Origin: Candidatus Rifleibacteriota bacterium
Lineage (GTDB): Bacteria; Muiribacteriota; Ozemobacteria; Ozemobacterales; Ozemobacteraceae
NCBI GenBank assembly: GCA_012517355.1
Contig: JAAYVD010000011.1
Location: 1 to 41,423, forward strand
Length of the DNA stretch: 41,423 nt
Direction of reading: 5' to 3'
Position numbers and translations under genes: made by a program. The notes under the pieces are model-generated. The model saw nothing but the letters and a program-made list of their open reading frames with translations. It ran no database searches and had not been told where the DNA came from. Of the stretch, positions 2,619 to 22,600 are shown piece after piece (position 1 is the first letter of the stretch; the number at the start of each line of letters is the position of its first letter).

Positions 2619-3419
2619 TCAGCGGGATGGGGGTCCGGCGGAGGGGCGGCGGCCGGAGGGGCCGCGGTGGGGCAGGCCCCACTCGGTGACGCCCTGCATC
2701 GCCGCCTCGTCCAGGACCGGCCCCTCAACGCACAGGCGCAGGCCGGAGCCGTCGAGGCAGCATTGGCCGCACAGGCCGATGCCGCACTTCATGTAGCGCT
2801 CGAACGAGAGTTCGGCCCGCCAACCCGCCCGTCGGGCGGCTTCCCGCAACGCCAGCAGCATCGGCTCGGGACCGGCCCCGCAGACGACCGCGGCGGGGCC
2901 GGAGGCCAGAGCGGTGGCCAGCCCGACCGTGACCGGGCCGGCGGTTCCGGCCGACCCGTCGTCGGTGAAGATCCGCACCCGGGGATCCCGCTGGAGATAG
3001 GCCTCGAACGGCAGGTCTGCGGCCTGCCTGGCTCCAGCCAGCCAGGAGAACGGCAGCCCGGCTTCGTCGAGCCGTTGGGCCAGGAAGCGCAGCGGGGCGT
3101 TGCCGATTCCCCCTCCCACCAGCACTGCTCCGCCGGTCAGGGAAAAGCCGCGGCCGAAGGGGCCGCGCAGGCCGACCCGGTCGCCGGGTCGTGCCTCCAG
3201 CAGGCGGCGGGTGAACGGCCCGACCGCCTTGACCGTGATCTCGAGCGCGTGAGGCCGGCGGCCTGACAGGGCAAACGGCTTCTCGTCGACGCCGGGCAGC
3301 CAGACGGTGACGAACTGGCCGGGTTCCGCTTCGAGGACAGGGGGCAGCAGAAAACTCTTGAGGCCCGCGTGGTGCGCGATGACCTCGAGGATCGGCACGG
3401 TCTGCATGGTGTCAGCCAT
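2619..3419 (-). CDS. pyrK: Dihydroorotate dehydrogenase electron-transfer subunit PyrK
   Basis: PyrK carries FAD and a [2Fe-2S] cluster and passes electrons from the PyrD subunit (class 1B) to NAD+. The 266-residue protein has the ferredoxin-reductase layout. An FAD domain includes ALSGRRP and GPFGRGF. A nucleotide domain begins at VLVGGGIGNAPLRFLA. The C-terminal cluster motif is CGIGLCGQC followed by LRLCVEGPV, giving the four cysteine ligands. The start at 3419 has AGGAGA 6 bases upstream; a second in-frame Met at 3407 is possible. It is the last gene of the pyr operon and is separated from pyrD by about 158 bases, in contrast to the overlapping CDSs upstream. The tail after the cluster is a 25-residue Pro/Arg/Ser-rich extension. 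Confidence 0.95.
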   Translation of the reverse strand: MADTMQTVPILEVIAHHAGLKSFLLPPVLEAEPGQFVTVWLPGVDEKPFALSGRRPHALEITVKAVGPFTRRLLEARPGDRVGLRGPFGRGFSLTGGAVLVGGGIGNAPLRFLAQRLDEAGLPFSWLAGARQAADLPFEAYLQRDPRVRIFTDDGSAGTAGPVTVGLATALASGPAAVVCGAGPEPMLLALREAARRAGWRAELSFERYMKCGIGLCGQCCLDGSGLRLCVEGPVLDEAAMQGVTEWGLPHRGPSGRRPSAGPPSR

Positions 3420-3577
3420 GGAAAGTCTCCTGGGAAAGGCGAGGCCGGTGGGGGCGGGCGGGCCTTCGCCGGGAAGCGGGGCGCGGGTGGCCCGGCCGGC
3501 CCGGGCGGAATGGCCACTCATGGACAGGGGCCGCCCGCCGAAGGAGGAGGGCCTGCCAGGCGGGGACGGGGTGATGG

Positions 3578-4570
3578 TCAGCCATGGGCGGCCCCCCGCA
3601 GCGCGTCGAGCGAGGGCAGTCCCCCGTGGGCCAGCCGGTCGGCAAGGAAGGCGTTGGTGGCGGCGAACAGCTCGAGGCCCCCCGTGTAGATGCCGGTGCC
3701 GATGCCCACCGCCGTGGCTCCCGCCAGGATCAGCTGCAGGGCATCCTCGGGGCGGGTGACCCCGCCGGTGCCGATGATGGGGATGGTCACTGCCTGGAAG
3801 AGGTCCCAGACGGCACGCACCGCGAGCGGCAGGATGGCCGCCCCCGACAGGCCGCCCACCTGGTTGGCCAGGATGGGCCGCCGGACGTCGATGTCGATCA
3901 GCATGCCGGGGCCCACCGAGTTGATGGCGGTGAGCGCGTCGGCGCCGGCGTCCTGGCAGGCCCGCCCCACGTGGGCGAGCGAGGGGCACTGCAGCGAGAG
4001 CTTGACGGCGACGGGGATTCCCCGCGCCCGTGCCTTCACGGCGGCGGTGATGCGGCCGCAGGCGTCGGCATCGGCGGCGAAGGGCTGGCCGAACTCGGAG
4101 GCGACGTTGGGGCAGGACACGTTGACCTCGAGCAGGGCGGGCGTGACCCGCTCCAGCAGACGGCCGGCGGCTTCCGCGAAGCCGGCCTCATTCTTGGCGA
4201 AGATCGAGGCGATGAGGGGAACGGGCGTCCGGGCCTGGAAGGCGGCGATCTCGGCGGCCATCTCGTCCAGGCCGGGGTTGGCCAGGCCGACCGCGTTGAG
4301 CAGGCCGTGCGCGAACGGCAGGATGGCGGGGCAGGGGTGCCCCTGGCGCTCCTCGAGGCCGCAGGACTTGGTGGTGACGGCCCCCGCCCCGGCGGCGGCG
4401 ACGCGCTCGAGGCTCGAGGCCGACAGGCCCATCACGCCCGAGGCCAGCACCAGCGGCGAGGCCAACGTGACCCCGGCCAGCCGCACCGCCAGGGATGGGG
4501 GTGTGGGAGGTCCAGTGACACGGTCGCCCGCAGCGGCCCGGTGCCGGTCCGTCGACAGATGAGGGCTCAT
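3578..4570 (-). CDS. pyrD: Dihydroorotate dehydrogenase, class 1B catalytic subunit PyrD
   Basis: This enzyme oxidises dihydroorotate to orotate, the fourth step of UMP synthesis, with FMN in a TIM barrel. The family motifs are in order: SPLVLASGV near the N-terminus, TTKSCGLEERQGHP, LNAVGLANPGLD, the active-site loop VNVSCPN with the class 1 catalytic Cys, VKLSLQCPS, and the FMN phosphate site PIIGTGGVTRPEDALQLILAGATAVGIGTG. Pairing with pyrK downstream fixes the class as 1B. The ATG overlaps the pyrF stop as ATGA (4567-4570), so translation is coupled; the first ~25 residues are not conserved-looking. Membrane anchoring is not expected, unlike class 2. Confidence 0.96.
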   Translation of the reverse strand: MSPHLSTDRHRAAAGDRVTGPPTPPSLAVRLAGVTLASPLVLASGVMGLSASSLERVAAAGAGAVTTKSCGLEERQGHPCPAILPFAHGLLNAVGLANPGLDEMAAEIAAFQARTPVPLIASIFAKNEAGFAEAAGRLLERVTPALLEVNVSCPNVASEFGQPFAADADACGRITAAVKARARGIPVAVKLSLQCPSLAHVGRACQDAGADALTAINSVGPGMLIDIDVRRPILANQVGGLSGAAILPLAVRAVWDLFQAVTIPIIGTGGVTRPEDALQLILAGATAVGIGTGIYTGGLELFAATNAFLADRLAHGGLPSLDALRGAAHG

Positions 4571-5268
4571 GGCCCGGCCCGCACGCGGCGGTCGGCGTCG
4601 GCCAGCCAGGCGGCGGGGTCGGCCGCCTTCAGGAGGCTGCGGCCGACGATCAGGTAATGCCGGCGCACGAACGGGAAGGCCTGCGGGTCGCCGCCCTGGG
4701 CGCCGAAGCCGGGGGAGTAGAACTCGGCGTCGGGCCCGGCCGGGTGGCGTTCGAGCAGCTGCTGAACCAGCGCCGGCTTGGTGAGGGGGACGACAAAGGC
4801 CCCGACCCCCTGTGCCTGTGCCAACCGGAAGACCTGTTCGGGGAAGGCGTCTGCCAGGAAGCCCCCTTCCGCCTGCAGGAAGGCCGGGTGGGTCATCAGG
4901 GTGCCGACGATGACCTTGAGCCGTTCCTGGCGAAGGGCCGCGATCCAGGCTTCGAGGGTGGCCGGGCCCGCCTGGCCGAACAGGATGGCCTCGTCGATGC
5001 CGGCCAGCTTCAGGGTGCGGGCGAACAGCGCCCCGGTTTCGGGGATGTCGGTGCCGGCCTTCTGGTGGTCGTAGATGACCGGCCGGTCCGAATGCCGGCG
5101 GATCATCTCCACGACCGCGGGCAGGCCGTGGGCGAGGCCGAGACCGAAACCGACCTTGAACCCGTAGAGGCGCTCGTGGCCGGCGACGGCGGCGACCACG
5201 CGTTCCGCCTCCTGCAGGTCGAGGCAGTCGAGGGCGGGGATCCAGCGGAAATCCTTGGCGGGTGGCAT
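4567..5268 (-). CDS. pyrF: Orotidine 5'-phosphate decarboxylase
   Basis: PyrF decarboxylates OMP to UMP. The 233-residue TIM-barrel protein starts with the substrate strand IPALDC. It has GFKVGFGLGLAHGL, then the catalytic DxK-type loop written here as YDHQKAGTDIP, in which Asp, Lys and the second Asp of the catalytic tetrad are all present. VGTLMTHPA and YSPGFGAQGGDP form the phosphate-binding end, and IVGRSLLKAADP closes the barrel. The DHQKAGTDIP spelling differs from the common bacterial DxKxxDIP form. Its start overlaps the pyrE stop by one base (TGATG) and its stop overlaps the pyrD start, so it sits in a tightly coupled operon. Confidence 0.94.
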   Translation of the reverse strand: MPPAKDFRWIPALDCLDLQEAERVVAAVAGHERLYGFKVGFGLGLAHGLPAVVEMIRRHSDRPVIYDHQKAGTDIPETGALFARTLKLAGIDEAILFGQAGPATLEAWIAALRQERLKVIVGTLMTHPAFLQAEGGFLADAFPEQVFRLAQAQGVGAFVVPLTKPALVQQLLERHPAGPDAEFYSPGFGAQGGDPQAFPFVRRHYLIVGRSLLKAADPAAWLADADRRVRAGP

Positions 5269-5879
5269 CAGGCGTTCTCCCAGAAATCCTGGATGATGCG
5301 CCAGCGGGAATCGCCGGCGGCGCGGAGGTGGGCGGCCAGGTCGGGCACCGTGGTCAGGGCGGCGACCGGCAGCGGGCTGGCCGTGCGGCGGGTGGTGCGG
5401 TCGACGACGACGAGCACGTCGGCCCTCGTCACGCCGAAGGCGGCGCGCAGGCCGTCGATGGCGTCGAGCTTGGTGCGGCCCGAGGTCAGCACGTCGTCGA
5501 TGATGACGAGGTGGTCGTCGGGGGTCGGCCGGCGGCCGATGAAGTTTCCCGTCTCGCCGTGGGTCTTGGCCTCCTTGCGGTCGTAGAGCACGCCCAGGTC
5601 GCGGCCGGCGCGGTGCCAGGCGGCGACGGCGGCCGCCGTGGCAAGGGAGATGCCCTTGTAGGCAGGTCCGAACAACAGGGTGGCGGCGGGAAAGCGCTGC
5701 GCGAGAGCGTCGGCGAGATGGCCGCCGAGGAAGACCAGGTCGCGGCCGTGTTTGACCTCGCCCAGGTCGATGAAGAACGGCGAGGTCCCCCCCGACTTGA
5801 GGGTGAACTCGCCGAACTTCAGGGCGCCGGTCCGCACCAGGAAGGGAATGATCGGTTCGAGGTCAGGGGCGGTCGTCAT
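5268..5879 (-). CDS. pyrE: Orotate phosphoribosyltransferase
   Basis: PyrE joins orotate to PRPP to make OMP. The 203-residue protein begins ALKFGEFTLKSGGTSPFFID, typical of the family N-terminus. It has LLFGPAYKGISLA and the flexible-loop region RKEAKTHGE. The PRPP-binding motif is VIIDDVLTSGRTK. The ATG at 5879 lies inside the last codons of pyrC (pyrC stop at 5863-5865), giving a 17-base overlap. A longer frame extending to 6077 is just antisense-like sequence within pyrC and is not used. Confidence 0.95.
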   Translation of the reverse strand: MTTAPDLEPIIPFLVRTGALKFGEFTLKSGGTSPFFIDLGEVKHGRDLVFLGGHLADALAQRFPAATLLFGPAYKGISLATAAAVAAWHRAGRDLGVLYDRKEAKTHGETGNFIGRRPTPDDHLVIIDDVLTSGRTKLDAIDGLRAAFGVTRADVLVVVDRTTRRTASPLPVAALTTVPDLAAHLRAAGDSRWRIIQDFWENA

Positions 5880-7488
5880 ACAGGTCCTTTCCGGGCGGGG
5901 ATGCCTGCACCTCTCCGTGCAGGAGGGCGGGGTGGCCGCCGACGAAGACGGCATCGACCACCCAGGGGAAGGCGAGGCCGGCATAGGGGTTGTACCCGGC
6001 CCGCGTGACGATGGTGGGGTGGGGGAGTTTGCCGGGCCGGGCGCACCGGATGACGGTGAGGTCGGCGGGGACCCCATCGGTCAGCACGCCTCGGCCGGCC
6101 AGCCCGTAGGCTTCGGCCGCGCCCCCGGCGCCGAGGCGGGCCGCCTGCGCCCAGGTCACCACCCCGTCCTCGACCAGCCGGCCGAGCAGGGGCAGGAACC
6201 ACTCGACGCCCGGCATCCCCGAAGGAGCCGCTTCGCCCGCCTTGGCCGCGGGTGGGTGGGGCGCGTGGTCGGTGGCGAGGAAGTCGATGGTGCCGTCGCG
6301 CAGGGCCTCGCGCAGGGCGGCGCGGTCCGCTTCCTCGCGCAGCGGTGGGTTCACCTGGAGCCGGGGTCCGACCCGCCGCTGGTCGGCGGCGGTGAAGAAC
6401 AGGTAGTGGAAGCAGGCCTCCGCCCACAGGTCCCGGCCGGCGGCCTTCAGGCGCCGGATCCAGGCGAGTTCCTCGCGGGTCGAGACGTGCAGCAGGATCA
6501 CGCGCGGCTCCCGGCCGCTCTCCCGCCGGGCCGCATCCAGAGCGGCCTCGATCCTGGCGAGGGCGCTGACGATTCCCTCGCGCGGTCGGGCCAGGGCGTG
6601 GGGAAGAGGCTCGCCCGCCGGCCGCGCGGGAAACGCGGTCTCGTCCTCGGCATGGATGGCCACGCGCGGGAAGGTCGCGAACAGGCGCGCCAGCTGCTCG
6701 ACGTCGGTGACCGCGGGGCAGGCACCTGAACGGGCCAGGAAGATCTTCCCCGCGGCGATGCCACAAACCGGTCGGCCGGTCGGCCTTCCCGCCGGTCGGC
6801 CTCCCGGGCCTGCGGCTGGCGATGTTCCCGAGTGGGCCACCCGGATCTCCCCGGCGGCGATGCCACCAACCGGTTGGTCGGTTGGCGTTCTCGCGGGGAA
6901 GGCTTTTGAGCCCGCCAAAAAGATCTTGTTGGCCGCGACGTCGGAAGCCGGCCAGTGGGCCAGCGTTTCCGCGGAACCGCCTTCCGACCCGGCCAGGGAA
7001 CCTGTATCGGCCGGGATGCCCGCGCCCCGCGGGTCGGCCGGTTGGCCGGACAGGCCCATCCCGCACCCGTTCTCAGGCCCACCGGAAGATTCCCACCGGC
7101 CCGGGGTGGCCGCGAACAGGCCCCAGTTGGTGCGGCACAACCGCCGGAACAAGGCCTTCTTGGCCGCCAGCCGCGCCGGGGTCGAGGTGGGCGGCCGCGT
7201 GTTGGGCATTTCGAGGACGGCGGTCACCCCGCCGACGACCGCGGCCCGGCTGCCGTTGGCCACCCCTTCGACCCGGGCCCCGCCCGGCTGCCGGAAGTGC
7301 ACGTGCGGGTCGATCAGCCCGGGCAGGATCAGCCGGTCCCGCCCATCGATGACCAGGCCGTCGCCGGGCAACCGCGAGACCCCGCGATGAAGGTGGATCC
7401 TCCCTTCGGCAAGGAGGATGGCCCCTTCGCGGATCGCGCCTCTGGCGTCGATCCAGCGAGCATCGTGGATCCTGACCGGACCGCCCAT
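5863..7488 (-). CDS. pyrC: Dihydroorotase with an internal repeat-bearing insertion
   Basis: PyrC cyclises carbamoyl-aspartate to dihydroorotate using a metal centre. Amidohydrolase landmarks are clear: DPHVHFRQPG (metal ligands His62 and His64), VLEMPNTRPP, NWGLFA, AIHAEDE (His279), LLHVSTREE, VNPPLREEADR and FLATDHAPH. At 541 residues it is about 110 longer than usual. The extra length lies between NWGLFAAT (about 127) and TDVEQLARLF (about 261). This segment is low-complexity and holds three copies of a 16-residue unit like AAGKIFLARSGACPA (residues 184-199, 210-225, 244-259), each resembling the normal GIKIFLGSSTG strand. The ATG at 7488 is chosen because the promoter at 7515-7543 would initiate just upstream. 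It is the first gene of the pyr operon. Confidence 0.92.
   Translation of the reverse strand: MGGPVRIHDARWIDARGAIREGAILLAEGRIHLHRGVSRLPGDGLVIDGRDRLILPGLIDPHVHFRQPGGARVEGVANGSRAAVVGGVTAVLEMPNTRPPTSTPARLAAKKALFRRLCRTNWGLFAATPGRWESSGGPENGCGMGLSGQPADPRGAGIPADTGSLAGSEGGSAETLAHWPASDVAANKIFLAGSKAFPARTPTDQPVGGIAAGEIRVAHSGTSPAAGPGGRPAGRPTGRPVCGIAAGKIFLARSGACPAVTDVEQLARLFATFPRVAIHAEDETAFPARPAGEPLPHALARPREGIVSALARIEAALDAARRESGREPRVILLHVSTREELAWIRRLKAAGRDLWAEACFHYLFFTAADQRRVGPRLQVNPPLREEADRAALREALRDGTIDFLATDHAPHPPAAKAGEAAPSGMPGVEWFLPLLGRLVEDGVVTWAQAARLGAGGAAEAYGLAGRGVLTDGVPADLTVIRCARPGKLPHPTIVTRAGYNPYAGLAFPWVVDAVFVGGHPALLHGEVQASPPGKDLYDDRP
6712..6939 (-). repeat. Threefold internal repeat inside pyrC
   Basis: Three related in-frame units at 6892-6939, 6814-6861 and 6712-6759 encode variants of AA(N/G)(K/E)I(F/R)(L/V)A-S-A-PA. 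The intervals between them are rich in GGTCGGCCGGTCGG-type sequence coding for Pro/Gly/Arg/Thr. It looks like tandem duplication of the dihydroorotase KIFLGSS strand with low-complexity spacers. Confidence 0.75.
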
Positions 7489-7514
7489 GCCACCCCCCGC
7501 CGGAAGTCGCGCGG

Positions 7515-7543
7515 ATGGTAGCACGGGGCCCCCGGCGGGTCAA
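7515..7543 (-). promoter_or_regulatory. Promoter of the pyr operon
   Basis: On the minus strand TTGACC (7543-7538), a 17-bp spacer and TACCAT (7520-7515). The transcription start near 7508 leaves only about 20 bases before the pyrC ATG, containing a G-rich ribosome site. That leader is too short for a PyrR-type attenuator or a pyrimidine riboswitch, so any control would act at initiation. Confidence 0.7.
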
Positions 7544-7784
7544 GATCGGACGGTTGTCGGAAGGGCCCCCCCGCCCCGCCACCGAGGGCGGCGAGAAACG
7601 CCAGCTTCGCGGACAGCCGGATGGCCGCCGAGGCCGAACCTCCCGCCGTGTCGGGAACGGGCGCTCGTGCGGCCCGAAGGGGCTTTCCCTCTCGATCGGT
7701 GGGCAGGGGGGGGCCTCCGGCCATCCGGCCATGGTGCCGCCAACCCTTTCTTTGAGCGGGGCGCCTGTCAACCGGAGGTGCCTG
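7544..7784. other. Intergenic region without a supported gene
   Basis: Upstream of the pyr promoter and before the transposase remnant I see no credible gene. A weak stem GGCCC/GGGGC followed by CTTT lies at 7671-7686. Its context (GGCCCGA-GGGGCTTTCC) recurs at 33588-33603, which may only reflect GC-rich composition. Confidence 0.4.
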
Positions 7785-8111
7785 ATGACCACTGCTCAGA
7801 AAAAGCTTGGAAAGCTGAGAAAGCGGGTTGCCCGATTCAAGAAGTTGTCGCGATTGCTCAAAAAGCTCTTGGCTCCGACCGTCGAGCGGGCTCTGCTCTT
7901 CCTCGACGAAAAGCTCCTCCCATCGACCTCCAACGCGGTCGAGCGGACCAACCGGCGATTTCGGAAAATGCAACGGGAGATCTATCGTGCCCGGACAACG
8001 ACCAGTATTCGCCAACGTGTGGCTCTCGACCTCCTGAGGGAAGCTCATCTTGCCACGAGATGCGAGGTGCTGCGGCTCCTGAGCCGGCAGCGGCTCACTT
8101 TCCTTGGCTGA
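7785..8111 (+). pseudogene. C-terminal remnant of a DDE-type transposase
   Basis: A 108-residue frame matches the C-terminal end of a transposase family by pattern: a basic helix (KKLGKLRKRVARFKK), LLFLDEKLLPSTSNAVERTN and RRFRKMQREIYR, then RVALDLLREA. The catalytic core that should precede it is missing, and no transposase-like frame is found in 7489-7784, so the element is 5'-truncated. The fragment happens to have GGAGG 7 bases before its first ATG and could still be translated. Just downstream, 8126-8147 resembles one end of a small inverted-repeat element at 39 kb and may be the surviving terminal repeat. IS family not assigned. Confidence 0.75.
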
Positions 8112-8125
8112 AGCCATCTGTACCC

Positions 8126-8147
8126 ATGCTAGAGTGTCGTTTTCAGA
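8126..8147. repeat. Putative IS terminal repeat next to the transposase remnant
   Basis: ATGCTAGAGTGTCGTTTTCAGA lacks 2 bases and differs at 1 base from the minus-strand sequence at 39075-39098 (ATGCTGGAGTGTCG followed by TTTTTTCAGA). It begins 14 bases past the transposase stop, where an IS end is expected. Confidence 0.5.
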
Positions 8148-8203
8148 AGGCAAATACGGAATTCCCGTATGAGTGTTTTCTTTTTGTGGACAACTGCGAA
8201 CGA

Positions 8204-8220
8204 CCAGATAAAATATCTGG
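8204..8220 (+). terminator. AT-rich hairpin in the leader of the large exported protein
   Basis: CCAGATA, loop AAA, TATCTGG forms a 7-bp perfect stem, followed a few bases later by ATTTTT. It lies 25 bases before the ATG at 8245. It could end readthrough from the transposase remnant or act as an attenuator or ribosome-access hairpin for the next gene. A second small palindrome (ATACGG/CCGTAT) lies at 8154-8170. Confidence 0.4.
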
Positions 8221-8244
8221 CGAAATTTTTCCTGGGAGGAAACC

Positions 8245-11200
8245 ATGGCTTGTTCCCGGCGGTTTTTGATGCATCTTTTCATCCCGGTGGTCCTGATATT
8301 GGCATGCGGTATCGACGGCTCTCCAGTCTTTGGCGACGAACTCCAAGAAGCCCAGGCCAAACTGACGATCGCCGAGGCGGCCAAGGATTTTTTGCTGAGA
8401 AGGCTCAGCATGTTCAACAACACGATCGACCAGTATGAAACGGCCCTGCAAGCTCTAAAGACCAAGCTCGACATCGAGGAGAAGGAGTTCCAGCATCTGA
8501 AAAACCGGCTGCGGGACCTCGACCAGCTGATTGCGAAGGTCAGGGCTCCCTACGATCTGGCCGAGGCCTATGCCAAATACAAGAAGTCGGCCAAGACCGT
8601 CCAGGATTTCAAGGAATACTTCTTCACCGTGCGCGGGCGCAAACCTGATCAGACCCAGATCGAGCAACGCCACATCGAAGAGGTGATCATCGAGAAGGAG
8701 ATCCGCAACAAAGCCGTGGTGGCCATCGGTCCGGCCCTGATCGAAATCGGCAAGCTCATCAACACCTTCGTCGACTTCAGTCGCAACAATGCCCCCGGCT
8801 CCATCCGGCTGCGGGAGATGGTCGATCCTTCCGACCTGTTTACCGCGCTCGAGAATCTGAGCGCGACCAAGAGCCATTGGTTCCAGGCATACAAAGCCAT
8901 TCAAATCGGGAAGGACGTCCTCGACACCTACTCGGCCTGGGCCGACAAGTTTGTCGATCCCTGCATCGACGTGGCCAGCAAGGTGGCCAACGAAGCCAAG
9001 ATCATGTCCAGGGAGACCATGGACTATATCTGGTCAAAGGTCGAGCGGCCGCTCCAATTCGTGCCGCAGATCGGCATGATCCTCGTCCAGAAGCGAGTCG
9101 GCGCCATGGCCGAGGCCATGATCAATGAGGCCAACCAATGCCTGTATGGGACACCGGACCGGGAAAAGACCTTCCAATATGCCACCCAGGCCAAAGAAAA
9201 CCTGAGCGAGACGCTGCAGTCCGTCGAAAAGCGGTTCCTGGTGGTGCAGAACGAATACCAGAAGCTGAACCAGGTTCTCCAGAGCAGCAAGAACCGTCAG
9301 CAGGAAATCATCTCCGAATACCGGCAAATCCTGGCCGAAATCGAAAACCTCGAACAGCAGATCAGTGATCTCAAGGTCAAGGAACGGAAGAAGGCGGCCC
9401 AGCAAGAGAACAAGGACCAACCGGCCCCCACGGGCAAGATCACCGAGACGATCGCCAGACTGAACGCCGACTCCCTCAAGCTGGCCCTGGATGAACCGAC
9501 CATGGCCCTCCTCCCTGACACGAAGCGAAAGGCTGTTATCTCCTACGAGATCCGCCGCGAGGACGAGAAAGGAAACCGTCGCACCCTGGTCAACGAGGGG
9601 GGAAACCTATTCAGTGAAGGTGCGGTCACCTTGAGGGGACTCGAGGTCAAACCACGGGCGCCAGGTCAGGGGTCCGTCCACGTCCAATGCAACGACGACA
9701 TGCAGACCCTCCACTTTGAAGCGATCGCCCTGGAAGGAATCGAGGTCAAAGGTCTGCCCAAGGAAGTCGCTTTCATCCACACCAGTCAAAAAACCTACCG
9801 CGGTTGGGTCGAAGCCCGGTTCACCAACGGCAAGACCACCTTCACCCGCAAAGTGCCGACCACCCAACTGGAATTTTTTAAAGAAGATGTCAAGGGATCG
9901 GTGGGCGAAATCATTCTTAAAGGCGATGAGTTCATAGTGATGGGGGGATTGGGGTACGGGCCGGCCAAAGTCACCATCCGCCTGCGCTGGGCCGAGGACA
10001 TCAAAACGTCCTTCGAAGTCAAGACCAGCTCTTTCTGCACCCTCGAATGGAAAGAACCCGATGTGGTCGCGCCAGCCAACGTCCTTGGGCAGAACGAGTT
10101 CCCCGTCCTTGTCGGCACCCCCTTCAACATCAAGCTGGAGGCAATCGGCGCGGTCGATATGTCGAAGTATCGGGTCAAGATCGATGTCCGCGAGGGGAAA
10201 GGGGTCAAGGTTTCCTTCCCCGAGAGGATGAATCGAACCTCGGAGGGATGGGGTGGACAGGGGAGCATTCGGTTCGATCCAAACGGAGTTCCCCTGGTCT
10301 TCGATGGGCCCCGCCCCAACCTCCCCCGCTTTATCGCCACCCTCAACGTCATGGATGAGGAAAACAACACCGTCTATTCGGAGGCCCTTCCGCGGTTGAT
10401 CGGGTTCGCCCAGGTCACCGAGCTCGAATTCGGCCGCAAGCTCGGCGGCAGCGGTGGGGCCGAACTGCTGGCCGTCGACCTGTTCGCCCCGGCGAAGAAA
10501 GAGCACTGGGATTTCGGGGTCGGCATGATCCTCAAAACCGCCGATGGGCGGACGGTGGTGGCGCCGCCGACGGCCTGCTACATCGACCAGGGGAACTGTC
10601 CCTATCCGCTCGATGCCAAGGGCGCGTTCCTGCAACCCGAATACATGGATGCGCTTTCCCCGCACCAGAGCGGGCGGTTCCAGCTCACGGCCGGGCCGCT
10701 CCCGGCCGTCTGGGCCAAACGGGGTCTCCTGCTGGGTGCCACCGAATGCCTGCCTCCCGACACGCTTCCGGTCACCCTGAACGTCCTGCGGGCCTTCCAG
10801 ATGCAGACCGCCCAGGGCACCAAGACCATTCTGCGCAACCACGGCCCCGCGCCGATGGCCAGCTTCAAGGCCCAGTGGCGCCGGATCGGGGGACTGTCCG
10901 AGACCACCTCCTTCGCCCAGAACGGCGAGTTTTGGGAAAGCACCACCAGCTTCCAGAGCGGGCTCATGGAAGTGAAGGTGCTCAACGCCCAGGGGAAGGA
11001 GGTCGCCCTTCTCGACCTGAAGAACCTGCAGAAAGTCGATGTGCGGGAAGCCGATCGTGCCTCGCTTGCCGCCGAACCTTTCCCGCCGGTGGCGCCGGGC
11101 GGCAATGTGGCGATTCCGGTCGTGGTTTCGGCGGCCACGACCGGCCAGGATGCCCCCCATCGCCTCCAGCTGTCGACCACCCACCCGCATCTCACCATTC

Positions 11201-12240
11201 CCCGGGCGATCATCCCGCTCGGTCAGGATCCTCGCGGGCACCGCGTCTATCCCGTGGTCCAGGCCGGTCGGCAAGCCCGACCAGGATCGCAGCTGCCGGT
11301 CGAGATGGTCCTGGAAGCGGAGCCCCGGGTCGGTGAATGGGTGACCGCAGCCCGGCTGACGGTTCAGATTCCGGTGGCGGGCGAGCCGGGAGACGCCACC
11401 TCCCTGTCCGACGCCTTGGGCCAGGCCGGTGGAGTGCCGCCGATGATGCCGGCCGCCGCCGGTCAACCCGCCGCCCCGCCGCCAGCCGGGCCCGTCCCGC
11501 CGGGCGGGCCGGCCGACTGGGATTTCGAACTGGCCCAGGTGGTTCCCGGGCAGGGCAACAATCCCTTCGATGCGGTCGATCCAGTGGCCCCGACGGCTGT
11601 TTCGGTCCCGGGTGATGGAGTGACCTCTCCCCGCACACCTCAGTCCGATTCCACCGGCACCGGGACGGGAACGGGAACCGGTTCTGGCAGCGGAACTGGG
11701 ACCGGAACTGGGACCGGAACCGGGACGGGAACAGGAACAGGAACGGGAACCGGGACAGGAACCAGTACGGGAGGCGGTGGCACGGCGAAACCCGTGACCG
11801 GGTCGATCGCCTTCGGCGCCAACACCGGATTCAATTCGGCCATGCAGGTTCAGTATGGCTTGATCGCCGGCATCGAGATCGACCCCAACACTGCCCAGAA
11901 TGGGTATCTGCGGAATGACGGGGCAGGCAATGCCCTCATCCTGCAGACTCCACCCAACGGTCCCGGCAATCCCACCGACGACATCGAGCTGTTCCCCGAC
12001 TATGGCGGCATCAGTCAGGGCGGCAGTTGGGATTTCGACGGCAAGAGCTTCACCACCAGATTCACCGACGGTGGCAGCCCCATTATCACCCCCGGCCAGA
12101 GCTACACGATCAACATGGTCTCGGTAGCCGGTCGCAAGGTGCGCCTGCAACTGCGCGTCTCATCCACCGGCAAAGAGCCGACTGACCGGCGCCCGGGCGA
12201 CCTGACCCTGATCATCGAAGATTCGGAGAAGACGCAATGA
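8245..12240 (+). CDS. Giant exported coiled-coil protein with Gly-Thr tract, function unknown
   Basis: A 1331-residue protein I do not recognise. The ATG has GGGAGG 5 bases upstream. A hydrophobic N-terminal segment (LFIPVVLILACGI) is a signal peptide; the ILAC at 18-21 could be a lipobox, so lipoprotein anchoring is possible. Residues about 32-105 and 310-395 are charged, heptad-rich coiled coil. Between them is a helical section (SKVANEAKIMSRETMDYIW). Residues about 430-1080 look like successive beta-sandwich modules. A Pro/Ala linker leads to a (GT)n tract around residues 1137-1175 and a C-terminal beta domain of about 145 residues. The 5' third has a lower GC content than the surrounding genes, hinting at a different origin. 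The stop overlaps the next start as ATGA, so it is coupled to the small exported protein and barrel gene downstream. Confidence 0.85.
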   Translation: MACSRRFLMHLFIPVVLILACGIDGSPVFGDELQEAQAKLTIAEAAKDFLLRRLSMFNNTIDQYETALQALKTKLDIEEKEFQHLKNRLRDLDQLIAKVRAPYDLAEAYAKYKKSAKTVQDFKEYFFTVRGRKPDQTQIEQRHIEEVIIEKEIRNKAVVAIGPALIEIGKLINTFVDFSRNNAPGSIRLREMVDPSDLFTALENLSATKSHWFQAYKAIQIGKDVLDTYSAWADKFVDPCIDVASKVANEAKIMSRETMDYIWSKVERPLQFVPQIGMILVQKRVGAMAEAMINEANQCLYGTPDREKTFQYATQAKENLSETLQSVEKRFLVVQNEYQKLNQVLQSSKNRQQEIISEYRQILAEIENLEQQISDLKVKERKKAAQQENKDQPAPTGKITETIARLNADSLKLALDEPTMALLPDTKRKAVISYEIRREDEKGNRRTLVNEGGNLFSEGAVTLRGLEVKPRAPGQGSVHVQCNDDMQTLHFEAIALEGIEVKGLPKEVAFIHTSQKTYRGWVEARFTNGKTTFTRKVPTTQLEFFKEDVKGSVGEIILKGDEFIVMGGLGYGPAKVTIRLRWAEDIKTSFEVKTSSFCTLEWKEPDVVAPANVLGQNEFPVLVGTPFNIKLEAIGAVDMSKYRVKIDVREGKGVKVSFPERMNRTSEGWGGQGSIRFDPNGVPLVFDGPRPNLPRFIATLNVMDEENNTVYSEALPRLIGFAQVTELEFGRKLGGSGGAELLAVDLFAPAKKEHWDFGVGMILKTADGRTVVAPPTACYIDQGNCPYPLDAKGAFLQPEYMDALSPHQSGRFQLTAGPLPAVWAKRGLLLGATECLPPDTLPVTLNVLRAFQMQTAQGTKTILRNHGPAPMASFKAQWRRIGGLSETTSFAQNGEFWESTTSFQSGLMEVKVLNAQGKEVALLDLKNLQKVDVREADRASLAAEPFPPVAPGGNVAIPVVVSAATTGQDAPHRLQLSTTHPHLTIPRAIIPLGQDPRGHRVYPVVQAGRQARPGSQLPVEMVLEAEPRVGEWVTAARLTVQIPVAGEPGDATSLSDALGQAGGVPPMMPAAAGQPAAPPPAGPVPPGGPADWDFELAQVVPGQGNNPFDAVDPVAPTAVSVPGDGVTSPRTPQSDSTGTGTGTGTGSGSGTGTGTGTGTGTGTGTGTGTGTGTSTGGGGTAKPVTGSIAFGANTGFNSAMQVQYGLIAGIEIDPNTAQNGYLRNDGAGNALILQTPPNGPGNPTDDIELFPDYGGISQGGSWDFDGKSFTTRFTDGGSPIITPGQSYTINMVSVAGRKVRLQLRVSSTGKEPTDRRPGDLTLIIEDSEKTQ
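11656..11783 (+). repeat. Degenerate hexanucleotide repeat coding for (Gly-Thr)n
   Basis: About twenty GGNACN-type units (GGAACN, GGGACN, a few TCTGGC) encode an almost uninterrupted Gly-Thr/Gly-Ser tract. The array is in frame in every copy, so length change by slippage would vary the linker without breaking the gene. It separates the main body from the C-terminal domain. Confidence 0.9.
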
Positions 12241-12836
12241 ACCGCTCATCCGCCTCCCTCGTGCTCCTAGCCCTCCTCCTCATCCTCGTCATCACGGCCG
12301 GCGGCCTGTTGCCGGCGGCCTGGGCCGAGTTCCGGTCCATGCAGCCGATCGCCACCCCCCGTCAGACCTGGTCGCAAGAGGCGGCCGGCGATGCCGCCGC
12401 GGCAGGGGCACCCCCCACTGCCGTGCGCCCGACGCCCGAAGTCGAGAAACTGGCCCAGGAAGCCCGTTCGCGGGCACCGCAACTGGCCCGGGAGGCCATG
12501 CAACGCCTGGTTCTGTCCTGGAACCAGGGCGACGCCGCCCGCCATCTGAGCAGCGATTTCGTCGACCGCGAGCGGTTCCTCACCTCCTGGGACGGCCAGG
12601 TGCCACGCGATGCGCGCGTGCGCCTGCTCTCGGTCGAGGGGGTCCAACCCCTGGACCAGGATAACCGGCTCGAGGGGTCACCCCCGACCCTGCTGCACGT
12701 CAACACACGCATTTCGGTGCGGGCCACCACCCAGGTCGAGTACAACGACCCGCAGCGCGGTTTCCAGCGCCGCGAAGGCCGCAACGAGTATATCTTCCGC
12801 ATCCGGCAGCGGATTCCGCTGACCGCGGGAAAGTGA
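12237..12836 (+). CDS. Small exported protein, NTF2-like fold possible
   Basis: A 199-residue protein starting inside the stop of the giant gene (ATGA), hence translationally coupled. Residues 1-30 are a classic Sec signal (LVLLALLLILVITAGGLLPAAWA). A Pro/Ala-rich spacer follows. A compact domain from about residue 78 then reads AREAMQRLVLSWNQGDAARH and later VRLLSVEGV, RISVRATTQVEY and NEYIFRIRQRI. One long helix with WNQGD then several beta strands resembles NTF2/SnoaL-like or Tim44-like calcium-free domains, which is inference from pattern only. Its position between the giant exported protein and the barrel suggests that the three form an envelope-associated assembly. Confidence 0.8.
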   Translation: MNRSSASLVLLALLLILVITAGGLLPAAWAEFRSMQPIATPRQTWSQEAAGDAAAAGAPPTAVRPTPEVEKLAQEARSRAPQLAREAMQRLVLSWNQGDAARHLSSDFVDRERFLTSWDGQVPRDARVRLLSVEGVQPLDQDNRLEGSPPTLLHVNTRISVRATTQVEYNDPQRGFQRREGRNEYIFRIRQRIPLTAGK

Positions 12837-12848
12837 GGCCAGGCCATC

Positions 12849-15071
12849 ATGTCGTTCCCCACCCCCCGTTCTTCCTTCCCCCTTCCGCCCAGGCCTGACC
12901 ACCGTTCGCCCCGTTCGGCCCGGGTGCTCGGCCTGCTGCTCGGGCTCGCCATCCTGCTGGCGGCGGGCACCCCCCCGGGACGGGCCGCGCCTGGTGAGTG
13001 GCGCTTGTCAGGGGACACCCTGCTCCGCACCGAGGAGTATCGTTCCCTCGGCGATCCCACCAGCGTGCCATACGCCATCACGGGCCGACACACCTACCAG
13101 AACCTGAACTTCCAGTTGTCGCAGGAGAACTCACCCTACGACCGCTGGCTGATCGAATACGCCGGACTGTGGAACAATTCGCAGTACCGCAGCCGCTTCT
13201 GGGGCGGCGAGACCGAGCGGTTCCGGCTGCTGCGCGAGAAAGGCGACGCCGGCCTGCCCTACCGGTTCGAAGCCGGCGACATCTACGCCAACTTCAGCAC
13301 CCGCACCCTGCAACGGTCGCTCAAGGGGCTGGTCCTCGAGCTGCAACCCCGCGGCACCGGCCGCCGGTTGACGCATTCCGTACAGGTCGTCTACGGCCGG
13401 TCGCAACCCGACTGGAAATACCTGCATGAGAGCCACGACCGCACCGCCGGGGTGTCCTGGCTCTTCCAGGACGAGAAGCGCTTCCGCGCCGCCCTCAGCT
13501 CGGTCTGGAACGGCCGCGACGCCGCTGTCACCACCGGCGCCCTCGACCGGCGCCAGAACGTCACCAGCTTTGCCTTCGAGCGCCGCCTGCCCGCGTTTGG
13601 CCAGGGTGTGCTGGAAGGCGAACTGGCCCGGTTCCATGGGGACCACGACGGCAGCACCGGCCCCGCCTCGGGCCAGGACCGGGATGACTGGGCGCGGTTC
13701 CTGCAATTGATGGGAGGAGTGCGCGACTTCCAGTACCGGCTGCGCTATGAGTGCCAGGGGGCTGACTTCCGGCCGGTCGGGGGCAGCGTCTCGGCCGACC
13801 GCCGCTCGCTCGAAGGGTTCCTCACCTGGAACCTCCGGGAAGGCCGCAGCGCGGTGCTGCGCATGCAACGGTTCGAAGACGGCTGGACCACCGACAACAC
13901 CCGGCGCACCCACCTGTCGGGTCTGACCCTGCGCGGCCCGCTCGATGTGGCGCGGCGCCTGAATGCCGGCCTGAACCTCTTCTCGGAGCATCTGTCCGAC
14001 GAGAAAGACACCCTGCGGCAGACGACCAGGGGCTTCAACGCCGACCTGAACCGCACCATCAGCCCCCAAATGTCGGCCCGGGCTGGGCTGACCATGCGTC
14101 TCACCGACAATGCCCGCAACGACGCGGCCGACAACCGCCTGACCCAGGTGACGGCCGGGTTCGACCGGTCGGTCGACCTGTTCACCTGCCCCGGCCGTCT
14201 CGCCATCGACATCGGGCAGCGGCTCATCGACCAGGGCGGGGAGGACAGCCGCGAGTGGTTCCCGGCCCTCGGCCTGTCGCTGAGCAAGAAGGAGCACGAC
14301 CTCGGCTTCTACTACCGGTTCCAGCGCCAGGATCGCCCCAACCCGCTGCGGGTCGACGTCGACACCGCCGACCTGTCCGCCCGCTACGCCTGGCGCAAGG
14401 GCGACCATCAGGCCGGCATCGACTACCTGCAGGTGCGGCGGCGCGACTCGAACGGGGTCTGGAGCCGCGGCCACCAGACCTCGTTCTGGTATCAATACGC
14501 GTTCGACACCATCTTCGGCCGCCGCCCGGTGATGGTGGCCGCCGCCCCCGGCACGCCGGTGGCCGGCGCCGGCCGCCCGGTCGATCTGTGGGCCGGTCTG
14601 GCGCTGGGTGAATCGTTCGCCGTGGCGCTCGACCAGGCCCGCGGCAAACTGGGCCAGGAGTCCCGCACCTGGAACCGGAACGTCATCTTCGAAACCACCC
14701 GGCTCGACGAGGTGGCCCAGCGGCAACGCCTGGTGCTGACCAACGAAGGCGACCGGCTGGCCCGGCTGACCTTGCTGATCGACGCCGACGACGCCACCGG
14801 GTTCGACGTCTTCGAGCGGGTGCGGCGCATCCTGCTCGAGCGGTTCGGCGCCCCCGCCGAGACCTACGAGGTCGGCCGGCCCGGGCCCGATCTGGCCGCC
14901 GAGGTCCAGCTCGGCCAGGTGATTCGGGCCATGGAATGGCGCCTGCCCGAGGGCGTGCTGCGCCTGACCATGCCGCGCCGGCTCGACGGTCGCCTGAAGA
15001 TCGAGGTGGCGCTGGCCGATTCCTTCCCGCCGTTGCGCGCCAACGACTGGGGGCTCGATCTGATCGACTGA
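12849..15071 (+). CDS. Probable outer-membrane beta-barrel protein
   Basis: A 740-residue exported protein. The N-terminus has a long Ser/Pro/Arg-rich n-region and the hydrophobic core LGLLLGLAILLAAGTPP, with cleavage likely after GRAA. Residues about 50-540 consist of alternating 8-12 residue amphipathic strands with aromatic ends (e.g. YRLRYECQGADFRP, DLGFYYRFQRQDRP, QTSFWYQYAFDTIF), the usual look of a large outer-membrane barrel. From about residue 575 a soluble C-terminal domain of about 165 residues follows (DLWAGLALGESFAVALDQAR; VRRILLERFGAPAETYEV). That tail is not barrel-like and could be a periplasmic or surface module. The gene is 12 bases after the small exported protein and is followed by a strong terminator, so it ends the three-gene unit. 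No family name can be given. Confidence 0.8.
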   Translation: MSFPTPRSSFPLPPRPDHRSPRSARVLGLLLGLAILLAAGTPPGRAAPGEWRLSGDTLLRTEEYRSLGDPTSVPYAITGRHTYQNLNFQLSQENSPYDRWLIEYAGLWNNSQYRSRFWGGETERFRLLREKGDAGLPYRFEAGDIYANFSTRTLQRSLKGLVLELQPRGTGRRLTHSVQVVYGRSQPDWKYLHESHDRTAGVSWLFQDEKRFRAALSSVWNGRDAAVTTGALDRRQNVTSFAFERRLPAFGQGVLEGELARFHGDHDGSTGPASGQDRDDWARFLQLMGGVRDFQYRLRYECQGADFRPVGGSVSADRRSLEGFLTWNLREGRSAVLRMQRFEDGWTTDNTRRTHLSGLTLRGPLDVARRLNAGLNLFSEHLSDEKDTLRQTTRGFNADLNRTISPQMSARAGLTMRLTDNARNDAADNRLTQVTAGFDRSVDLFTCPGRLAIDIGQRLIDQGGEDSREWFPALGLSLSKKEHDLGFYYRFQRQDRPNPLRVDVDTADLSARYAWRKGDHQAGIDYLQVRRRDSNGVWSRGHQTSFWYQYAFDTIFGRRPVMVAAAPGTPVAGAGRPVDLWAGLALGESFAVALDQARGKLGQESRTWNRNVIFETTRLDEVAQRQRLVLTNEGDRLARLTLLIDADDATGFDVFERVRRILLERFGAPAETYEVGRPGPDLAAEVQLGQVIRAMEWRLPEGVLRLTMPRRLDGRLKIEVALADSFPPLRANDWGLDLID

Positions 15072-15090
15072 TCAGCCTCCCCGTTCATCG

Positions 15091-15120
15091 CAACGGCCCC
15101 CACGTTCGTGGGGGCCGTTG
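15091..15120 (+). terminator. Strong rho-independent terminator of the envelope cluster
   Basis: A 13-bp perfect stem CAACGGCCCCCAC/GTGGGGGCCGTTG with loop GTTC, followed by GCTTTA, 19 bases past the stop at 15071. A second hairpin (GGCCCG/CGGGCC) lies at about 15132-15150, just before the insertion sequence. Confidence 0.85.
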
Positions 15121-15218
15121 GCTTTATGACGTGGGCCCGGAGATCGGGCCAATGCTCAAACAGGAGTGTACGAACAACGCGACCACGGGTTGGCCAAAAG
15201 CCTCTAGAGAAGCCTATC

Positions 15219-16931
15219 TCAGTGTCCCAGAGCGCGTAGGACCCCACTGCCGTCGATCTCACGATTGAACGCGCGTAGGACTTCAGCTTGGGTCTTCGAG
15301 GGAGTCTCGAGGGATCGACGCGGGTTGCGCGCGCCAGCCGGGATCGCCAAGATGGAGTGGAGGTGTTGCATGTCCGCCATCACGTCGGCTGCAGTGCGCT
15401 GGATCCCAGTTCGGCGGAGGCGCAGTTCCAGGCGTCGCAGATAGGTCATGGCTGCGACGCAGGTGAACAGGTGACACTGGATCTTGCTGTCAGTCCAGTG
15501 ACGGATGGGTTGGACCCCGACGAGGTCATCGTCCTTGGTCTGTCGAAAGCACTGCTCGATTTCGAATCGGTCGAGACTGGCACTGACGATCTCGGTCGTG
15601 GTCCAGTCATGGTTGTCGGTGACGATGAGGTTCTTGCCGAACATCCGTTCGCGCTGTTGCGTGCGATGCGCTGACTTCGCAAAGGTCATGGCCATCTGGC
15701 CGTCCTCGGTCGAGAATGTCAGTTCATACAGATCGGTTGGCAGGTGCAGACCTTCACAGCGAGCGACATACCGGTCGCGGATGGCCTCGGCATCCCTCCA
15801 CTGAGGTGCGTTCTCGCGCACCTTGGCCCGCATGGCCAGCAGATCCTCCCGGAGGGTGTCGAGCTTGCGCTCGAATTCGTGCTGCTGCTTTCTCTGTGTT
15901 CGCGGGTTGAACGTCATGACCACCGTGCGCTTCTTGCCCCACAGATCCATTTGAGTGCGATAGACCTTCAGGTGGTCGTCGTCATCGCGCTGTTTCTGAG
16001 ACAGCGCCTCGGTCAATGGTTCGTATTGCTCGAGAGGGACGGCTGCCAGGGTCTCGGCGAAGTGCAGCGAATAGGTGGTCACAAAGCGAATATCCCGCGT
16101 TGCATCAATGATCGCGTAGTTGTCGGCCGAGTTCATGCCCTTATCGACGACGACAGTCAGCCTTTCCTTCTCGGTGGTTCCGCGCAGGAACGACTTCGCC
16201 TGGTCCAGGATGCCTTGAAAGACCCGGCTGTCATGCAAGTTGCCGGGGTAGACCACATAGTGTCGCGGCAACCGCGTCCCACGACCGATGAGGAGGCCAA
16301 GCCCCACTTGTCGCAGATTGTCGCGGCCCTCCTTGTTTTTGCCCCGCCGCGCCAGATTTGATGGCGTCTTTGACGCCATGAAGATGAAGTAGTTGGTCGT
16401 GTCAAACAACAGGCAGTCGGCCTCTGCCTTCTCAGCGCCCCATACCCGATCGAAGAACCGGCGCGCGATCTCACCCAGTTGCTCTTCCGTGACCCGGTGC
16501 CACTTGTCCCAGTAGTGCTGACTGGTCAACTGCCCGACATCCACGGGTCGGATTTCCTGGACCGCGGTTCGTGAATACCACTGTGGCAGTTGGTTCTTGC
16601 TGACGGCCTCGACCATGCGATTGAGAACGGCATAGCGAAAGTACTCGCCGACCGACGGCCCTGTTTCGCGCTTGGAGGTGGGCACGACCTCGTCGACGAT
16701 GCCGGCGATATCCACATCCTGATCGATTTGGTCTGCAAGCCAGAGCGCCCCCCACTTGTTGACGATGAGCCGGCGGTCACCGTCGTCGCCGCCCTTGGCC
16801 AGTTGAGCAACCTTCTCCGGCGAACCCAGGTAGACCTGTGAAACCACCTTCGGCTTGCCGTTAACCCGGGCAATCTCACGGACGTAGAGATAGGGTCTTC
16901 CCTTCTTGGTCTTGATATGGAAATGAGCCAT
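15219..16931 (-). CDS. IS1634-like (IS4 superfamily) transposase
   Basis: A 570-residue DDE transposase that looks full length. The N-terminus HFHIKTKKGRPYLYVRE and VVSQVYLG is typical of the IS1634 group. The catalytic acidic residues fall in LLFDTTNYFIF (first Asp), LTVVVDKGMNS (second Asp) and DRFEIEQCFRQTKDDDLV (Glu, with the YREK-like region). The insertion-domain pattern is consistent with DDE_Tnp_1. The ATG at 16931 (MAHFHIK) is preferred to the upstream Met at 16967, because a promoter-like TTGACA/TACGCT pair at 16938-16967 occupies that stretch. No Shine-Dalgarno precedes it, so the mRNA may be leaderless. Base and codon use are less GC-extreme than neighbouring genes, as expected of a recent arrival. 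Confidence 0.9.
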   Translation of the reverse strand: MAHFHIKTKKGRPYLYVREIARVNGKPKVVSQVYLGSPEKVAQLAKGGDDGDRRLIVNKWGALWLADQIDQDVDIAGIVDEVVPTSKRETGPSVGEYFRYAVLNRMVEAVSKNQLPQWYSRTAVQEIRPVDVGQLTSQHYWDKWHRVTEEQLGEIARRFFDRVWGAEKAEADCLLFDTTNYFIFMASKTPSNLARRGKNKEGRDNLRQVGLGLLIGRGTRLPRHYVVYPGNLHDSRVFQGILDQAKSFLRGTTEKERLTVVVDKGMNSADNYAIIDATRDIRFVTTYSLHFAETLAAVPLEQYEPLTEALSQKQRDDDDHLKVYRTQMDLWGKKRTVVMTFNPRTQRKQQHEFERKLDTLREDLLAMRAKVRENAPQWRDAEAIRDRYVARCEGLHLPTDLYELTFSTEDGQMAMTFAKSAHRTQQRERMFGKNLIVTDNHDWTTTEIVSASLDRFEIEQCFRQTKDDDLVGVQPIRHWTDSKIQCHLFTCVAAMTYLRRLELRLRRTGIQRTAADVMADMQHLHSILAIPAGARNPRRSLETPSKTQAEVLRAFNREIDGSGVLRALGH

Positions 16932-17043
16932 AGCGACAGCGTACCATAGTAGGGCCTTACATGTCAAGCGTTGATTGCAAAAATTTCCTCCAATAGACAG
17001 ATTTGCCAGGGATCCGACGGGCGGGGAAAGAAGGGTCCTACGC
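15234..17043. mobile_element. IS1634-like insertion sequence
   Basis: A perfect 11-bp inverted repeat, GCGTAGGACCC at 15234-15244 and GGGTCCTACGC at 17033-17043, brackets the transposase and gives an element of about 1.8 kb. The left repeat lies inside the last codons of the transposase gene (the V-L-R near the C-terminus), so the stop would be just outside the repeat. The true ends may extend a little further outward. No convincing target duplication was recognised. Confidence 0.6.
16938..16967 (-). promoter_or_regulatory. Promoter-like pair before the transposase
   Basis: On the minus strand TTGACA (16967-16962), an 18-bp spacer and TACGCT (16943-16938). The predicted start falls on or next to the ATG at 16931. 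Confidence 0.45.
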
Positions 17044-20888: not shown

Positions 20889-22418
20889 ATGAAGGATTTC
20901 ACCGAGCTTTCCCAGTTCGAACTCGATCCCGCCGCCATCCGGCTGCTGGACGAATCCTTCTGCCGGAAAAACGATGTGGTGGTGCTCGGGCCAGCCCCCG
21001 CCGCGGAAGGCACCGAACCCCTTCCGGTGGGCATGCTAGCCCCCGCCGACGGCACCCTGGTCGGCCAGGTGGAAGGCCTGCTGCAGCGGAAGGTGCGGCC
21101 CGTCCAGCTCACCGACCACGAGATCGACCAGGCGCTGGCCTTCGGGTTCGGCCAGGAAGGCGGGGAAGCCCGTTCCAAGGGGGTCTCGCCCGACCAGCTG
21201 GCGCGCAAGGTCGATCTGGCGTTTTCCCGCCGCATCTCCTTCGAACGCGGCCAGACCGCGGCCAAGATGGTGATCGACCTGCTGTCGGAGGCGATGCGGG
21301 TGCGGGCCACCGACGTCCATGTCGAGAGCTATGCCAATGACGTCGACGTCCGGTTCCGCATCGACGGCGTCCTCTACCAGGTCAACACCCCGATCACCCC
21401 GGCCAACGTCAGCCTCGTGGTGTCGCACGTCAAGGCCCTGTCCGACCTGAACATCGTCGAGCGCTTCCAGTCCCAGGACGGACATTTCCCTGCCCTCTTC
21501 ACCGCCGCCGACGGCATCCGCCAGAAGGTCAGCCTGCGCGTCTCCATCATTCCAGGGCCCTACGGGGAAGACCTCGTCTTCCGGTTCGTCTACTCCGGCA
21601 AGGTGATGCTCGGCCTGCATGAGCTCGGCATTGCCCCCGACCTGCTCGTCCGCTTCCAGGGCTTGATGCACACCCCGGGCGGGCTGTTCCTGGTCACCGG
21701 CCCGACCGCCAGCGGCAAGACCACCACCCTCTACGCCGCCCTCCGCGCCATCGCCAACCGGCGCATGAAGATCCTGACCGTCGAGGACCCCGTCGAACTC
21801 GAGATCCCCAAGGTCAACCAGAAGCAGGTCGATTCCCGCATGTCCTTCGCCAAATACGTGCGGGCCTTCCTGCGCCAGAACCCCGACGTCATCCTCGTCG
21901 GTGAGATCCGCGACGAGGAGACCGCCGGCGTCGCCCTGCGCGCCGCCCAGATCGGCCACCTGGTGCTGTCCACCCTGCACACCCGCGACGCCGTGTCGGC
22001 CCTCAACCGCATCAGCACCCTCGGCGTCGATTCCAACCTGCTCGCCATCACCCTGATCGGGGTGCTCGCCCAGCGCCTCGTGCGGCGCATCTGCCCGGAC
22101 TGCCGGGAGACCTACGAACCAGATCCCGCGCTGCTCAGCGCGTTGCCCCGCCTGCCGGCCGACCTGACCTTCGTGCGGGGGGCGGGGTGCCCGGCCTGCC
22201 GCGGCACCGGATACTACGGCCAGACGGGGGTCTTCGAACTCCTCGACTTCCACGACGCCCTGCGCCGGCTGTTCGCCCGTAGCCACGGCATCCCCTCCGA
22301 GCGCGAACTCGAACTGCTCCTGCCCGCCCACATGTTCGAGGACGCCCTCGACAAGGTGAGGCAGGGCCTGACCACCGTCGAAGAGGTGTTCCGCGCCGTT
22401 CCCCTGCCCGAACGCTGA
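20889..22418 (+). CDS. GspE/PilB-type secretion or pilus ATPase
   Basis: A 509-residue hexameric motor ATPase of type II secretion or type IV pilus assembly. The P-loop is GPTASGKTTTLYAAL (271-285), the Asp box ILTVEDPVE (295-303), Walker B NPDVILVGEIRDEETAG (331-347) and the His box HLVLSTLHTRDA (357-368). A four-cysteine zinc site is CPDC (402-405) and CPAC (434-437). The PAS-like N2 domain starts with DVHVESYANDVDVRFRIDG. The N-terminal 110 residues are shorter and more divergent than the N1 domain of typical PilB/GspE, so partner specificity cannot be told. No other pilus or secretion genes are adjacent, and it stands alone behind its own promoter. Confidence 0.92.
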   Translation: MKDFTELSQFELDPAAIRLLDESFCRKNDVVVLGPAPAAEGTEPLPVGMLAPADGTLVGQVEGLLQRKVRPVQLTDHEIDQALAFGFGQEGGEARSKGVSPDQLARKVDLAFSRRISFERGQTAAKMVIDLLSEAMRVRATDVHVESYANDVDVRFRIDGVLYQVNTPITPANVSLVVSHVKALSDLNIVERFQSQDGHFPALFTAADGIRQKVSLRVSIIPGPYGEDLVFRFVYSGKVMLGLHELGIAPDLLVRFQGLMHTPGGLFLVTGPTASGKTTTLYAALRAIANRRMKILTVEDPVELEIPKVNQKQVDSRMSFAKYVRAFLRQNPDVILVGEIRDEETAGVALRAAQIGHLVLSTLHTRDAVSALNRISTLGVDSNLLAITLIGVLAQRLVRRICPDCRETYEPDPALLSALPRLPADLTFVRGAGCPACRGTGYYGQTGVFELLDFHDALRRLFARSHGIPSERELELLLPAHMFEDALDKVRQGLTTVEEVFRAVPLPER

Positions 22419-22543: not shown

Positions 22544-22600
22544 CGGAAATTCGGGAAGGGAAGGGGCCCGGTCCGTGCGGAGAAGCCTGCCGGGCCGGTT

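Follow-up and report, generated by a model that had tools for sequence, protein, structure and literature searches.

SlpA of Deinococcus combines a coiled coil and a large barrel in one protein. Salmonella offers a separately encoded arrangement, ZirTS, in which the barrel ZirT exports its partner ZirS, a released exoprotein, from genes on a horizontally acquired island (PMC2270342). T-Q ester-bond domains, in turn, are stalk elements of fibrillar cell-surface adhesins (PMC12617251). Here we describe an operon of three genes, A, B and C, in a stretch of 41,423 nucleotides from a Candidatus Rifleibacteriota bacterium (the window; contig C31 of G000, a metagenome-type genome of 7.1 Mb). Its three genes move between genome sites as one unit, like a cassette, and few members of the Ozemobacteraceae carry them. 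We put the chances at about even that A is a stalk displayed on the surface, that C is an outer-membrane barrel exporting or anchoring it, and that B helps from the periplasm.

The three genes are tightly coupled open reading frames on the + strand, as are the other operon features given below. A (8245-12240) encodes 1331 amino acids, B (12237-12836) 199 and C (12849-15071) 740. A and B share an ATGA overlap at 12237-12240, and a gap of 12 bases (12837-12848) separates B from C. The ribosome-binding site of A, gggagg at 8234-8239, is rated good. A promoter-like match at 8187-8214 was discounted, since two such matches were found against 1.0 expected, within chance. Each protein carries a single N-terminal hydrophobic signal segment, and none has a second strongly hydrophobic segment. 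This agrees with an earlier note on the window, which had described the three reading frames, their coupling and the export of A and B. The strong closing terminator that it proposed stands in part. A GC-rich hairpin with a 12-bp stem and 4-nt loop follows C (15092-15119; -36.9 kcal/mol, z=-5.2), but its U-tract is weak (GGCUUUAU) and it is missing from the list returned by a terminator scan. Candidatus Ozemobacter sibiricus, the closest named relative with the operon, has a similar hairpin 3' of its C gene; in a third genome, G004, no comparable simple hairpin is evident directly 3' of C. Searches of Pfam, NCBIfam, PHROGs and PADLOC placed none of the three proteins in a family, returning coiled-coil or low-complexity noise alone. 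Against PDB sequence profiles, B, C and the C-terminal domain of A had no meaningful match, and the N-terminal domain of A drew only keratin-like coiled-coil noise. The earlier remark that none matches a known family is borne out in these databases.

The phylum was searched, in 40 genomes, with profiles of C, B and the N-terminal domain of A. Only three genomes have B, and the same three have C, at four loci in two genera. The carriers are the window's genome, Ca. O. sibiricus BY5 (G001), which belongs to the same genus, and Ozemobacteraceae bacterium G004, of another genus, which has two copies. The chance of two 3-of-40 sets agreeing is about 1 in 9,880, a value to be read with the caveat that the genomes are not independent. 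Gene order is A-B-C at all four loci carrying B or C, with the close coupling kept, and the co-occurrence in relatives that the earlier note had set as a test is therefore found. The two copies in G004, a metagenome bin (79% complete, 4% contamination), lie on separate contigs. The profile of the A N-terminal domain (A5) matches in 4 of the 40 genomes. In G010, 67% complete, A is broken, at the end of a contig, and B and C are undetected; a third congener, G002, has neither B nor C. Many further matches to A in other genomes were discarded because the GT-repeat linker alone had aligned. Among 84,980 species genomes, the C profile matched contigs of Ozemobacteraceae only; plasmids and viral contigs held no relatives of the operon proteins. 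Because it is confined to few Ozemobacteraceae in the genome, plasmid and viral searches, the operon is narrow, lineage-restricted and accessory.

The window aligns with O. sibiricus DNA over 8320-15119. This homology ends exactly after the hairpin, and the block contains A, B, C and nothing else. The flanks of the O. sibiricus operon, at the ends of contigs C9 and C22, are adjacent on contig C168 of the window's genome, 294 bp apart. C9 and C22 are therefore neighbours, and the split of A in O. sibiricus is a contig break. The C168 site is the empty counterpart of the O. sibiricus operon site. The window's own upstream flank (2629-7545) is found on O. sibiricus contig C18, where the operon is absent. 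No target-site duplications were seen at the cassette borders. Upstream of the operon start, at 7814-8138, lies what remains of the C-terminal part of an IS66/IS256-like transposase, with a 98% identical copy at contig C129:7346-7670, and downstream, at 15219-16967 on the - strand, an IS1634 transposase; the operon is flanked by insertion-sequence genes or remnants. A movable, lineage-restricted cassette in this setting is what the earlier note had missed. A region of about 8 kb near the empty site (positions 8282-16274 of locus L084, on contig C168) is present in the window's genome and not in O. sibiricus; it is perhaps a hotspot for cassette exchange.

Protein A begins with a signal peptide (residues ~1-30; 8245-8334). 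A lipobox-like stretch, LILAC, raised lipoprotein status, which was rejected; because the stretch is not conserved in relatives, the peptide is probably cut by signal peptidase I. The structure model of A covers 1112 residues at low confidence (mean predicted local distance difference test score, pLDDT, of 44). An N-terminal helical domain (residues 29-390; 8329-9414), defined by the model and by profile A5, has long helices at 29-99 and 306-390 (pLDDT ~70-83) on either side of a helical insert, and moderately hydrophobic helices at residues ~155-180 and 270-300. A beta-rich region follows (residues ~437-1045; 9553-11379), for which the model suggests immunoglobulin (Ig)-like domains. Foldseek matched A, with low scores throughout, to proteins with coiled coils or Ig domains, among them S-layer Sap domains and invasin. 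Next come a (Gly-Thr)n linker, encoded by a tandem repeat (11653-11763), and a conserved C-terminal domain of 150 residues (1182-1331; 11788-12237). Between genera, conservation is 24-27% for the N-terminal domain and 32-46% for the C-terminal domain. The linker is exchanged among loci: GT repeats in the window, GGGGD repeats at one G004 locus (C150) and three T-Q ester-bond domains at the other (C67). A variable linker between conserved ends is what is seen in stalks.

The paralogue on C67, directly upstream of B and C, bears on location. Its three TQ domains match PF18202 (E 1.1e-74) and NF033903 (E 6e-69), and H-x-D-L-x-D-A-A-Q is present in all three copies, leaving the cross-link motif intact. 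The spacing equals that of His572/Asp577/Gln580 in the adhesin Cpe0147 (PMC12679949). Because a paralogue has T-Q ester-bond stalk repeats, a surface location of A is independently supported. The C-terminal domain, probably beta-rich and without a Pfam match in any of its five members, recurs as the last domain of a putative lipoprotein, otherwise unrelated to A, in G012 (C24:172261-172689, L013), a genome in which profile searches found no B or C. Its presence on a putative N-terminally lipid-anchored protein argues that the domain is distal, and points to a binding module at the far end more than to an export signal specific to C. The idea that the G012 lipoprotein fuses B to this domain was rejected, B being unrelated to that protein (probability 0.4%).

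Protein C is predicted, from the model and residue alternation, to be an outer-membrane beta-barrel with a soluble C-terminal domain. About 24 strands are modelled in residues 57-550 (13017-14498), beginning directly after the signal-peptide-like N-terminus with no N-terminal domain, and an alpha/beta domain occupies residues 590-740 (14616-15068). The model has low confidence (a mean pLDDT of 55, rising to 83 in blocks of strands) and does not resolve barrel closure. Nor does it resolve residues 110-158, within which most of a conserved block, WGGExERFRL...GDxYANFSxRTLxRSLKG at 118-160, falls. In-out hydrophobic alternation in its profile version reaches z=2.6 against local shuffles over residues 50-555; in the C-terminal domain z is 1.1, not clearly above the shuffles. 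Foldseek matches are LptD, TonB-dependent receptors and SlpA, generic barrels with a TM-score of at most 0.33. The models lend weak support to the coiled-coil/beta make-up of A and to the barrel plus soluble domain of C, both read earlier from the letters. Protein B has a signal peptide and, at once after it, a near-invariant mature start, EFRSxxxIxxP; the next stretch reads as a helix followed by strands. It has no sequence match in Pfam, NCBIfam or PDB. The NTF2-like label given to B earlier is plausible but unconfirmed.

Substitution rates were computed between the window's species and O. sibiricus. A, B and C are under purifying selection, with ratios of nonsynonymous to synonymous divergence (dN/dS) of 0.27 and 0.21 for the two halves of A, 0.19 for B and 0.16 for C. 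Synonymous divergence (dS) drops steadily along the operon, from 1.0 in A through 0.65 in B and 0.46 in C to 0.35 at the end of C. The fall suggests a mosaic history; it also suggests that A either has recombined separately or diversifies faster. At the protein level A evolves fastest and C slowest (64-72% against 87% identity), which would suit a surface protein whose machinery stays fixed.

How such a system might work can be sketched from these parts. A, B and C would leave the cytoplasm via Sec, from their signal-peptide-like N-termini. C would form a large barrel in the outer membrane, its C-terminal domain predicted to be periplasmic. A would then be threaded through or held by C, so that the coiled coil at its N-terminus stays by the barrel while the beta stalk and variable linker point outward, ending in the C-terminal domain as a distal tip, probably ligand-binding. 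B may keep A competent or dock it to C, perhaps through EFRSxxxI. The job of the operon is likely adhesion to surfaces, particles or neighbouring cells. That C exports or anchors A we infer from gene linkage and anatomy. The earlier suggestion of a dedicated cell-surface or secretion apparatus is partly supported, its surface part by the TQ repeats in the paralogue of A. Several points weigh against our proposal. It takes for granted that the phylum has an outer membrane of Gram-negative type. The models of C and A are of low confidence (pLDDT 55 and 44), with Foldseek matches of C that are generic and below a TM-score of 0.35. Pfam shows no TQ domain in the A of the window itself, and the C67 contig starts inside the A gene, whose N-terminal half is probably on contig C63. 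The C-terminal domain is present in G012 without B and C, and so does not on its own amount to a sorting signal specific to C. A more ambitious version, which we hold only tentatively and think somewhat doubtful, is that of a new class of outer-membrane export and display system, in which C and a docking helper B export the coiled-coil/Ig stalk A, the whole travelling as a mobile three-gene cassette in a diderm phylum, with one version having an ester-bond-stiffened stalk.

A might instead span the periplasm as a tether, its coiled coil on the cell wall and its beta part on the barrel C, stabilizing the envelope like SlpA/OmpM. A does start with two long helices, SlpA of Deinococcus is among the better Foldseek matches of C (TM-score 0.27-0.33), and neither LPXTG/sortase nor another known surface-sorting signal was seen on A. 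However, a Pfam search found no SLH or peptidoglycan-binding domain, the TQ ester-bond repeats of the paralogue indicate an extracellular position, and an accessory, mobile operon present in 3 of 40 genomes is unlike housekeeping tethers. We regard a tether as unlikely. Much the same judgement falls on an uptake module, in which C would be an ordinary nutrient or glycan transporter or receptor barrel, A a capturing binding protein and B an accessory. TonB-dependent receptors appear among the Foldseek matches of C, and the probably beta-rich C-terminal domain of A could bind glycans. Yet C has no plug or TonB-box domain, its strands starting straight after the signal peptide, and A, B and C stand alone in the block, with no SusD, transporter or enzyme genes. 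Such a module is improbable.

The small gene between A and C also recalls a weapon. Here the helical N-terminal part of A would be a pore-former or toxin delivered by C, with B as its chaperone or immunity protein. The moderately hydrophobic helices of A fit this idea, as does the release of ZirS by its barrel partner (PMC2270342). No toxin or defence family was matched, however, and Foldseek of A yields coiled-coil and Ig proteins and no pore-former. B, moreover, is conserved, in one copy per locus, and shows no diversification of the immunity type. We consider a weapon very unlikely, and favour a surface stalk served by C and B.

The surrounding DNA has features of its own. At 7555-7617 lies a dispersed repeat of ~60 bases, of which the window's genome has ~40 copies, 73-89% identical; it looks like a repetitive extragenic palindromic (REP)-type element family of Ozemobacter. 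Within a dihydroorotase-like reading frame (5863-7524), a ~90-residue insertion at 6758-7113 (- strand) carries a repeated AA(N/G)KIFLA(G/R)S motif and is not present in the O. sibiricus orthologue. It is probably an internal duplication, or else marks a damaged gene. Farther downstream, a GspE/PilB-type ATPase (20889-22418) precedes two unmatched reading frames of 1146 and 1053 amino acids; this region, 20889-29126, may encode a divergent type II secretion system or pilus. An ankyrin-repeat protein is encoded at 30126-30890, where several ankyrin models match, every one far below its cut-off.

If our proposal is true, the operon would represent an unrecognised route by which a diderm could bring large stalk proteins to its surface. 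Its three protein families have no known relatives, and the phylum has seen very little experimental study. The operon also sets TQ ester-bond stalk domains, otherwise typical of Gram-positive adhesins, beside a predicted outer-membrane barrel, and is a compact three-gene system for asking how a protein with such cross-links might get through the outer membrane.

Membership in described systems was considered for each protein. C was rejected as a TpsB/Omp85 protein, its Omp85 match reaching 15.0 bits against a cut-off of 24 (E 0.018) and no POTRA being found. Pfam and NCBIfam searches gave no TPS-domain or beta-helix match for A, whose N-terminus is helical, and A was rejected as a TpsA. The same databases gave no intimin-type barrel match for C or its homologues, against an inverse autotransporter or ZirT, and no recognised C-terminal sorting domain in A, against type IX secretion or PEP-CTERM cargo status. 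Profiles found no plug or usher domain in C and no PapD-like chaperone match for B, and chaperone-usher membership was rejected, neither protein matching usher or chaperone families. Likeness to known systems is nonetheless evident. SlpA/OmpM tethers and LptD share large barrels with C, and the coiled coil that SlpA joins to its barrel in one protein is here joined in one operon; they differ in the separate polypeptides, in TM-scores no higher than 0.33, in identities of 7-10% and in SLH or lipopolysaccharide-transport domains, which A-B-C lacks. TQ ester-bond adhesins are matched by the G004 paralogue with its three TQ domains and cross-link motif, whereas A has no LPXTG/sortase signal, is paired with a predicted outer-membrane barrel and, in the window, has a GT linker. 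Two-partner secretion (TpsA/TpsB, type Vb) likewise pairs a large, exported, stalk-like protein with an outer-membrane barrel gene, but the soluble domain of C comes after the barrel, not before, and C has no POTRA nor A a TPS domain. ZirTS resembles A-B-C in encoding a barrel with a separate Sec-exported exoprotein, in its narrow distribution and in its horizontal acquisition (PMC2270342). It differs in that ZirT belongs to the intimin/invasin barrel family and C matches none, and in the domain after the barrel of C, the extra gene B and the far larger A; export is demonstrated for ZirS and not for A. Among known systems ZirTS is the nearest in working and two-partner secretion the nearest as a family-level idea; on the features compared, A-B-C belongs to neither.

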